Source: Mesodorylaimus sp. YZB2_4 (Eukaryota; Nematoda; Enoplea; Dorylaimida; Dorylaimidae). Taken from it: a DNA stretch of 64,000 nucleotides. Location: assembly GCA_030248295.1 (NCBI GenBank), contig JASANH010000371.1, positions 186,001 through 250,000 on the forward strand, given 5' to 3'. A program made the position numbers and the translations under genes. Within the stretch, counting starts at the first letter, position 1; each line of letters begins with the position of its first letter. The notes under the pieces are model-generated. The model had not been told where the DNA came from, made no database searches, and worked only from the letters and a program-made list of their open reading frames with translations. Shown here in pieces: positions 51,801 to 52,947 of this stretch.

Positions 51801-52829
51801 TGCACAAGTACCTCAGTGTGGAGGGATGTCAAAATGGATTGGAGTTTTGTTGCAGTGCGACTACACGAATGTTCCGACGACAGTGTTCACACCTTTGGAG
51901 TACGGGTGCTGCGGATTGAGGGAAGAAGATGCCATCGAGCAATTTGGAGCCGATGCGGTTGAGGTACGTGTAGTGGGCGTTGTGGACCAGGTTAGTGCAG
52001 TGGGCCCACTTTTTAGGTTTTCCACATTCAGTTCGATCCGTTGGAGTATACAGTACCTCATCGGATGGAGTTGGAGCATTGCTACGCCAAGATGATATGC
52101 AATAAGAAGGACGATGTAAGTATGATTTCGCCTCGCACTGGCTAGGGGCATGGTGTGATGACGCTAGGCAACTGCAGGTTTTGAGACAGAGCTTAAGAAT
52201 GTTAGAATGTTTTCTCAATCCCCTCTATCAAAAACCTTGGCTTATCAACCATGCATGGAGCAAGGGGCCCAATTTCCCTGTTTTGGTTCGTGATGTGCAT
52301 GTCGCACCTATCAGTACTGATTCAGATAAGCAAGTAAGATGCGCAGCGAGAACCCGTCCTTCCCCCCCCCCCCCCCCCTCAGTGTACACTGTGCTAGGAG
52401 GGGACCTGACCATCACAGAAGGCTCCCGCTCGGGTCGTCCTCTCCCACGTCCGCAGTTGGTCGTATCAGACACGATGCATAGCTGCCATATTTGCAGATG
52501 CGTGTGGTGGGCGTCCATATTCTAGGGCCGAATGCGGGTGAAGTCATTCAGGGATTCGCCATCGGATTAAAACTCGGTGCTAAGAAAGACGATTTCGATA
52601 ATTTGATCGGCATTCATCCGACTGTGGCCGAGGTGAGTGCAGCTGAGGATAATGTACATGGGCGGGATTGTAGTGATCGCTTAACTATTTTGGAAGGATT
52701 GACTGTGTGCAGCTACCCTGCGTAAGGTCCACTGCCTTATGGCATGTTGTGCTATTTCAGATCTTCACGACAATGCAAGTGAGCAAAGCATCTAAGAAAG
52801 CGTTTAAACAAGGGGCATGCTGAGGATAA
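48847..52829 (+). CDS. TXNRD: Mitochondrial thioredoxin/glutathione reductase, selenoprotein
   Basis: FAD flavoenzyme passing electrons from NADPH to thioredoxin. Seventeen exons: 48847-48922, 48985-49067, 49166-49229, 49293-49501, 49565-49637, 49693-49733, 49783-49861, 49932-50074, 50430-50545, 50751-50976, 51036-51125, 51233-51309, 51636-51795, 51856-51963, 52017-52115, 52498-52632, 52761-52829; 615 residues, all in frame. The N-terminus ([20 protein letters not shown]) is basic and amphipathic like a mitochondrial presequence. Next is a glutaredoxin fold whose CPYC is replaced ([10 protein letters not shown], 42-51). Then the FAD motif GGGSGG (134-139), redox pair CVNVGC (Cys174/179), NADPH domain [11 protein letters not shown] (312 on), and catalytic His588 in GIHPTVAE. 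The last codons are GCA TGC TGA GGA TAA: Ala-Cys-Sec-Gly-stop, the TrxR C-terminus, with UGA at 52821-52823. A SECIS element follows. Without a working glutaredoxin site it probably acts as a TrxR. Confidence 0.95.
50285..50400 (-). repeat. Antisense partial copy of the 0.75-kb repeat
   Basis: Reverse complement of the block around 28990-29100 (TTTCAGCC, GTCGCAAGACTTGC, AGTCGGAG, GTCCCG in order). It lies in the reductase intron between 50074 and 50430; the preceding 50100-50280 is also repeat-like. Confidence 0.65.
51340..51575 (+). repeat. SINE-like body repeat, copy B
   Basis: Aligns with 25980-26310; sits in the reductase intron between exons ending at 51309 and starting at 51636. Confidence 0.6.
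52362..52378. repeat. C17 homopolymer
   Basis: Uninterrupted run of 17 C in the reductase intron before the 52498 exon. Confidence 0.9.
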
Positions 52830-52873
52830 AGAACCCGTCGCTGGATTCTGCAAGCGATGGGATCGACGAAGGA

Positions 52874-52947
52874 ACTACTTTTGAATTTCTAGTGATGGGC
52901 ATTCTTCAACTGGTTCGACAGCCTGAATGTCCTGATGCAAAAGTGGT
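52874..52947 (+). promoter_or_regulatory. SECIS element of the reductase selenoprotein
   Basis: It starts 51 bases after the selenocysteine UGA, in the 3' UTR. Helix I: 52874-52883 (ACTACTTTTG) pairs with 52938-52947 (CAAAAGTGGT), ten pairs. The core has TGAT at 52893-52896 opposite TGAT at 52933-52936, giving the tandem G.A/A.G quartet. Helix II: 52897-52904 (GGGCATTC) with 52925-52932 (GAATGTCC), eight pairs. The apical loop has AA at 52908-52909, 12 bases after the core TGA, as the consensus expects. CTG/CAG in the loop could form the small extra helix of a type II SECIS. Confidence 0.88.

Follow-up and report, generated by a model that had tools for sequence, protein, structure and literature searches.

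The window analyzed here, a 64,000-nucleotide stretch of DNA (positions 186001-250000 of a contig labelled C147, in an assembly of 145 Mb and 1067 contigs), has a G+C content of 48.5% and contains a thioredoxin reductase (TrxR) gene on the forward strand, the last exon of which carries an in-frame UGA. The features of the coding region are:

48847..52829, + strand: TrxR gene, 17 coding exons, 615 residues including selenocysteine (Sec)
48847-48922, 48985-49067, 49166-49229, 49293-49501, 49565-49637, 49693-49733, + strand: exons 1-6
49783-49861, 49932-50074, 50430-50545, 50751-50976, 51036-51125, 51233-51309, + strand: exons 7-12
51636-51795, 51856-51963, 52017-52115, 52498-52632, 52761-52829, + strand: exons 13-17
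48847..48922, + strand: exon 1 (26 residues), which by its sequence character, judged by eye, may be a mitochondrial targeting peptide
48985..49435, + strand: glutaredoxin-like (Grx-like) domain of exons 2-4, without CxxC, from Pfam and PDB matches
49693..49733, + strand: redox-motif exon, CVNVGC, aligned to rat TrxR
52761..52829, + strand: last exon, with an AG acceptor, ending GCA TGC TGA GGA TAA (Ala-Cys-Sec-Gly-stop, with a Gly before the Ala)
52821..52823, + strand: UGA read as Sec, in alignment with the next-to-last residue of the rat enzyme

All 16 introns are of the GT..AG type and measure 49-382 nt, and the joined exons form a single open frame except for the UGA. The probable start codon was assigned from an upstream in-frame stop and the targeting-like N terminus. 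The acceptor of exon 15 at 52017 gives VFHIQ where rat TrxR has VYHSF; the PDB and Pfam searches described below used a version of the protein without these five residues. The best PDB match is rat TrxR1 (PDB ID: 1h6v, 712 bits, E 6.5e-213, residues 121-610), with TrxR from Brugia malayi at 669 bits (PDB ID: 7p0x, E 5.5e-200, residues 89-610) and chains of thioredoxin-glutathione reductase (TGR; 2x8c and others, which we take to be from Schistosoma mansoni) at 618 bits or less. By these alignment scores the TrxR module is, among PDB chains, nearest to vertebrate TrxR1. Pfam assigns Pyr_redox_2 (E 1.4e-56) and Pyr_redox_dim (E 1e-26), and the protein thus shows the hallmarks of an animal-type TrxR, namely a pyridine nucleotide-disulphide oxidoreductase and a dimerisation domain, CVNVGC, and a Cys followed by a penultimate UGA. 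Both CVNVGC and the Cys-X-Gly-stop tail, in which X is presumably Sec in nature, are common to rat TrxR1 and the window protein, whereas the latter adds the N-terminal Grx-like domain and the targeting-like peptide and has the tail Ala-Cys-Sec-Gly. At the nucleotide level, TGC TGA GGA TAA occupies 52818-52829, with GGA directly 3' of the UGA and TAA at 52827-52829.

Other coding stretches were recognized in the window. Upstream of the TrxR gene, a LanC-like exon lies at 46019-46246 on the - strand (PF05147, E 6e-12), for which further exons look likely; a nearby open frame at 47678-48001 has no Pfam match. A galactose-1-phosphate uridylyltransferase of 368 aa with both Pfam domains, apparently intronless, occupies 43313-44416 on the - strand, and an open frame of 435 aa at 169-1473, also on the - strand, carries a von Willebrand factor A domain (E 1.3e-6).

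Behind the UGA, the 3' UTR contains the following elements:

52834..52861, + strand: 9-bp stem-loop, candidate Sec redefinition element, starting 10 nt after the UGA
52874..52947, + strand: SECIS, form 2, with G before the quartet (GUGA type), from its fold and paralog covariation
52874-52883 with 52938-52947, + strand: SECIS helix I, 10 bp
52893-52896 with 52933-52936, + strand: SECIS quartet UGAU/UGAU, preceded by G
52897-52904 with 52925-52932, + strand: SECIS helix II, 8 bp
52908-52909, + strand: SECIS apical AA, within UUC-AA
52910-52912 with 52919-52921, + strand: SECIS mini-stem CUG/CAG
52962..52967, + strand: ATTAAA, possible polyadenylation signal (motif only), starting 15 bases behind the SECIS

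The initial annotation had described the last exon as ending TGC TGA GGA TAA, that is Cys-Sec-Gly-stop, with a foldable SECIS (two helices, a tandem G.A core and an apical AA) beginning 51 bases after the UGA. The sequence agrees and aligns with the end of Sec-TrxRs, every core feature is present in the fold, and 50 bases separate the UGA from helix I; the observation of UGA and SECIS is confirmed, and its interpretation, a Sec encoded by the UGA with a SECIS behind it, is supported. The element has the structural characters of a eukaryotic SECIS (tandem-G.A quartet, unpaired AA, usual helix lengths, position in the 3' UTR), with an internal loop of 9 nt separating helix I from the quartet on the 5' side. 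It shares the quartet, AA, two helices and mini-stem with eukaryotic form 2 elements of the GUGA_AA class, and differs from that class in being missed by Rfam SECIS_1 and in the short distance, 69 nt, between UGA and quartet. A G before the quartet has been described, in the parts of these sources available to us, for Ostreococcus, zebrafish and nematode genes (PMC2375036), sponges (PMC3473315) and the GPx1 of S. japonicum (PMC2679728).

Taken by itself, the SECIS is modestly distinctive in folding energy (z -2.0, 10 of 200 shuffles as stable), and the 145-nt stretch behind the UGA is more so (z -4.0, 0 of 200). A custom scanner requiring the quartet, an unbroken helix II of at least 7, the AA and a helix I of at least 6, criteria set after the window element had been seen, matched 66 times in 3.84 Mb of simulated sequence, a background of 0.017 per kb of one strand; with helices of 8 and 10, as in the window element, a single match was left in the same 3.84 Mb. 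On the real window, the looser class returned three matches on the + strand, including the TrxR SECIS, and none on the - strand. Rfam SECIS_1 (RF00031) gave no match to the window element at E<=10 in two runs. A covariance model built from the two glutathione peroxidase (GPx) SECIS described below likewise did not find it, and run locally with filters off gave five chance-level matches in the window, none at the SECIS; its training set, a pair of closely similar sequences, is too narrow. Alignments by MAFFT that combined the SECIS of unrelated families were unusable and were given no weight.

A genome profile search with Pyr_redox_dim returned eight matches, assigned to six genes. Four are TrxR genes: the window gene on C147, two on C1 (C1:785k and C1:542k; L013, L014) and one on C45. 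The remaining two are a gene on C11, which we take to resemble dihydrolipoamide dehydrogenase, and a presumably glutathione reductase-like gene on C33, ending HPTSGEELVTLR. The C1 paralogs end Cys-Sec-Ser rather than Cys-Sec-Gly, with the tails KCUS (TGC TGA TCT TAA) and NCUS (TGC TGA TCG TAA), and each is followed by an AUGA-type SECIS candidate. The C45 paralog has an ECCPA tail, with Cys-Cys replacing Cys-Sec, and a SECIS scan over 1.5 kb gave no candidate there. Across the three Sec-TrxR genes, all 33 cells of helix II and the mini-stem hold standard pairs, against 30-49% of cells in slid controls, and 4 of 11 pairs have changed on both sides. Among 500 shuffles, 6 reached four of the five covariation measures, and 167 reached the remaining one, on further pair types. 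The sample comprises three related rows from one genome, with the structure taken from one of them, and helix I, which has a different register in the paralogs, is excluded from the count; because of the related rows and the exclusion of helix I, this covariation provides support, not proof. The compensatory changes among paralogs nonetheless outweigh the failed Rfam score, and the reading of the element as a SECIS is therefore supported.

The stretch between UGA and SECIS is itself structured. The fold of 52821-52872 (52 nt) reaches -17.3 kcal/mol, with 2 of 200 shuffles as stable, and the corresponding stretches of the other two Sec-TrxR genes (57 and 44 nt) reach -23.2 and -14.9 kcal/mol, with 0 of 200 shuffles in each case. 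For the Cys paralog on C45 the value is -3.3 kcal/mol, matched by 158 of 200 shuffles. The main stem begins 10 nt after the UGA in all three Sec genes, with differing sequences and with short outer pairs outside the main stem in each. In a control scan of the window for stems 10 nt behind a TGA, stems of at least 6 bp occurred at 91 of 2375 positions and of at least 9 bp at 6 of 2375; since the offset was chosen after the folds had been seen, and the scan misses the stem of C1:785k (an inner hairpin) and finds in the Cys paralog a weak stem of 6-7 bp, mostly A-U, the position of the stem-loop is suggestive, not proven. UGA and quartet are 69 nt apart in the window gene and 78 and 63 nt in its Sec paralogs, and 627-2261 nt apart (genomic, introns included) in the six other Sec genes described below. 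The minimum UGA-SECIS spacing in reporter work is reportedly 51-111 nt. Sec redefinition elements are known in SELENON and SELENOT (PMC8704476), and the SL1 of selenoprotein S, a stem-loop in the 3' UTR 9 nt behind a UGA close to the C terminus, promotes Sec insertion in its native position (PMC3628699), as far as the available parts of both papers describe. The window stem-loop, a candidate element, lies 10 nt behind its UGA and belongs to a TrxR gene rather than to selenoprotein S.

The genes of the Sec machinery that were searched for are present in the genome. The tRNA-Sec on C75 scores 76.4 bits and has the anticodon TCA. Another match reaches 36.4 bits, short of the cut-off, and ARAGORN assigns it to tRNA-Leu. 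An eEFSec domain was found on C3 (E 4e-30) and SepSecS on C64 (seven matches). SBP2 lies on C8, where three joined pieces have the SBP2 chain of 7zjw as best PDB match (E 1.1e-23). Residues 505-540 of that chain are matched by an exon further upstream, LDSSVPVLHKGKQRENPKKK (E 4e-4); we take this region to be the Sec-incorporation domain, which is presumably absent from C. elegans SBP2. SPS on C283 is represented by four exon matches, each singly below the whole-protein cut-off of the family. Sec decoding at the level of the organism is thus represented by tRNA-Sec, eEFSec, SepSecS, SBP2 and SPS2. Two checks had been proposed in the initial annotation, and they diverged: the search for Sec-tRNA, SBP2 and EFsec recovered all three, and the scoring of the SECIS by a covariance model yielded no match to Rfam SECIS_1. 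The Grx-like domain, the nematode origin, the paralogs and the stem-loop that precedes the SECIS are additional to what that annotation described.

Searches with four families yielded nine UGA-Sec genes (three TrxR, two GPx, SPS2 and three SelW/Rdx12-like), the window gene being the one for which a full gene model was built. A SECIS candidate lies downstream of all nine, of GUGA type for the window TrxR and both GPx and of AUGA type for the other six. The GPx search returned seven matches in six places. On C424 and C539, PHGPx-type genes have an in-frame UGA at NVACK-UGA-GNT and GUGA-type SECIS candidates, the C424 fragment having a glutathione peroxidase as best PDB match (E 1.3e-45); C787 holds a copy of the 3' part with a SECIS candidate, C279 a Cys form, and the matches on C145 and C72 start behind the active site, so that the Sec/Cys position is not covered. 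The SPS2 gene on C283 (L045 3028-5470) has its UGA at the active site, reading LRG-UGA-GCKVP in alignment with LKGTGCKVP of selenide, water dikinase 1, and its SECIS scores 36.8 bits against Rfam SECIS_1, above the gathering score of 35 bits. The three SelW/Rdx12-like genes (L047-L049) are close mutual paralogs with similar AUGA SECIS candidates, and all read CxxU after splicing with joins made by eye (CGGU on C65, CRGU on C44, CSGU on C7); the best PDB matches of the C65 gene are C17orf37 (E 1.3e-11) and SelW (E 4.4e-6). The Rfam input comprised the window TrxR element and six non-TrxR elements, with the SECIS of the C1 TrxR genes left out; four of the six were never reported, and the C424 GPx SECIS scored 27.4 bits in one run and was unreported in a larger one.

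The nematode cuticle-collagen domain has 133 matches in the genome, which is therefore that of a nematode. For the SL1 spliced leader, Rfam gave none among the 50 of 31302 candidates that were scored, with no control match, and a pattern search of the genome for its 22 nt, allowing one mismatch, found none; this suggests, without proving it, a lineage outside Chromadorea. An assembly in 1067 contigs might include DNA from a host, food or a second animal, so that some of the Sec genes would be foreign and the wide use of Sec an artefact of assembly, and eight contigs, those of GPx (C424, C539, C787), SPS2 (C283), SepSecS (C64), two SelW-like genes (C7, C65) and the window gene (C147), have no cuticle-collagen match. 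We consider this improbable, given that the contigs of tRNA-Sec (C75), SBP2 (C8), eEFSec (C3), the C44 SelW-like gene and the C1 Sec-TrxRs also carry cuticle collagens, that the three SelW-like genes are closely paralogous, and that the window TrxR is paralogous to the C1 genes.

The N-terminal domain raises the question of whether the window gene encodes a TGR like those of flatworms or mammalian TXNRD3, in which the glutaredoxin domain is active. The order of Grx and TrxR modules is the same as in the flatworm TGR of S. mansoni, and the alignments to TGRs in the PDB begin at query residue 79 or 69. On exons 2-4, Pfam Glutaredoxin scores below its cut-off (E 7.9e-4, profile positions 13-60 only), and in the PDB search the domain matches glutaredoxins at E 3e-5 and Brugia TrxR at E 1.3e-3. 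However, no cysteine is present in the region of the CxxC/CxxS active site of the window domain, and no CxxC was seen by eye in the exon pieces of the other three TrxR paralogs (FHGKNQSQAATQ, VSGWNDATLTEV, ISGWSDPAVVEV); the loss is therefore probably older than the duplications. The existence of a glutathione reductase-like gene on C33 also argues against a TGR, an identity that we regard as very unlikely; a flatworm TGR had been an early idea and was dropped on the missing CxxC and the nematode collagens in the genome. SmTGR has a CPYC active site and both Grx and GSSG-reductase activity, in contrast to the window gene without CxxC, whereas the Sec-TrxRs of B. malayi and Onchocerca volvulus carry a Grx-like domain without Grx motifs and show neither Grx nor GSSG-reductase activity, a fusion reported for clade IIIc parasites (PMC8914392, in the part accessible to us). 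The filarial enzymes thus resemble the window gene in joining a nematode Sec-TrxR to a Grx-like domain without Grx motifs. They differ in the tail, GCUG in the same source and ACUG in the window gene, and the window genome has no SL1 match; the rat enzyme outscores that of Brugia as a match to the window TrxR module, and the alignment of the Grx-like domain with that of Brugia, on which the clade IIIc C22/C82/C83 criterion bears, spans about 30 residues. Because CxxC is absent and a Grx-like domain without these activities is known in Brugia and Onchocerca, the window gene is, as judged from its sequence, a pseudo-Grx TrxR and not a TGR.

That the UGA is an ordinary stop, the enzyme ending Gly-Ala-Cys and the hairpin being fortuitous or a relic, would agree with the failure of Rfam to recognize the SECIS and with a case known here from genomic DNA, but is scarcely credible beside the Sec machinery genes (those searched for) present in the genome, the compensatory changes that maintain the SECIS in the paralogs, and the Gly-stop behind the UGA that aligns with known Sec-TrxRs.

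With the gene structure, the position of the UGA, the SECIS fold and its covariation, and the machinery genes all observed directly, the locus is almost certainly a functional selenoprotein TrxR gene of a nematode. In such a gene, a ribosome would reach the UGA with one sense codon left to read; eEFSec and its Sec-tRNA would be brought in by SBP2 on the SECIS quartet, Sec would be inserted, Gly would be added after it, and translation would end at the UAA. The stem-loop 10 nt behind the UGA would probably slow the ribosome and favor Sec over termination, an effect that could matter because the SECIS core is just 69 nt from the UGA. In the enzyme, thioredoxin is predicted to receive electrons that come from NADPH and travel by way of FAD and the disulphide of CVNVGC to the Cys-Sec pair at the C terminus of the other subunit. 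Lacking active-site cysteines, the Grx-like domain is probably structural or regulatory, and we infer from the character of exon 1 that the protein may be targeted to mitochondria.

C. elegans and C. briggsae encode a single selenoprotein, a TrxR (PMC2375036); nematode PHGPx are described as Cys forms, with TrxR and/or SelK as Sec proteins (PMC2679728); and nematodes are given as the only metazoans with a Cys-SPS, which is not a claim on every nematode SPS (PMC4561486), each statement resting on the part of the source available. No report of a nematode Sec-GPx or Sec-SPS2 appeared in the portions of the literature searched, a body that excludes the main nematode selenoproteome surveys. The window TrxR gene is thus ordinary and of a known kind, and what is less ordinary is the Sec-rich nematode around it, because nine UGA-Sec genes compare with one in C. 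elegans and with Cys PHGPx in nematodes. We lean, with some reserve, toward the view that a nematode probably outside Chromadorea has kept or regained a wide use of Sec. On this view it has no fewer than nine UGA-Sec genes, drawn from four families and with Sec-PHGPx, Sec-SPS2 and three SelW/Rdx12-like CxxU proteins among them, its SBP2 retains a Sec-incorporation-domain motif, and its TrxR family has expanded to at least four members (ACUG, KCUS, NCUS and the Cys form ECCPA), in each of which the Grx domain is dead. A compact cassette of UGA, redefinition stem-loop and SECIS, with the stem 10 nt after the UGA, would be common to the three members with Sec, and the drop to one selenoprotein would have occurred within nematodes and not at their base.

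The window gene is a clean example of a case in which annotation based on stop codons would lose the catalytic residue, and the stem-loop/SECIS cassette of the three TrxR paralogs offers a natural test of redefinition elements. Nematodes are the standard case of extreme selenoproteome reduction; if the wider reading is true, the loss of the selenoproteome falls inside Nematoda, and this worm would be one in which to follow how the use of Sec shrinks.
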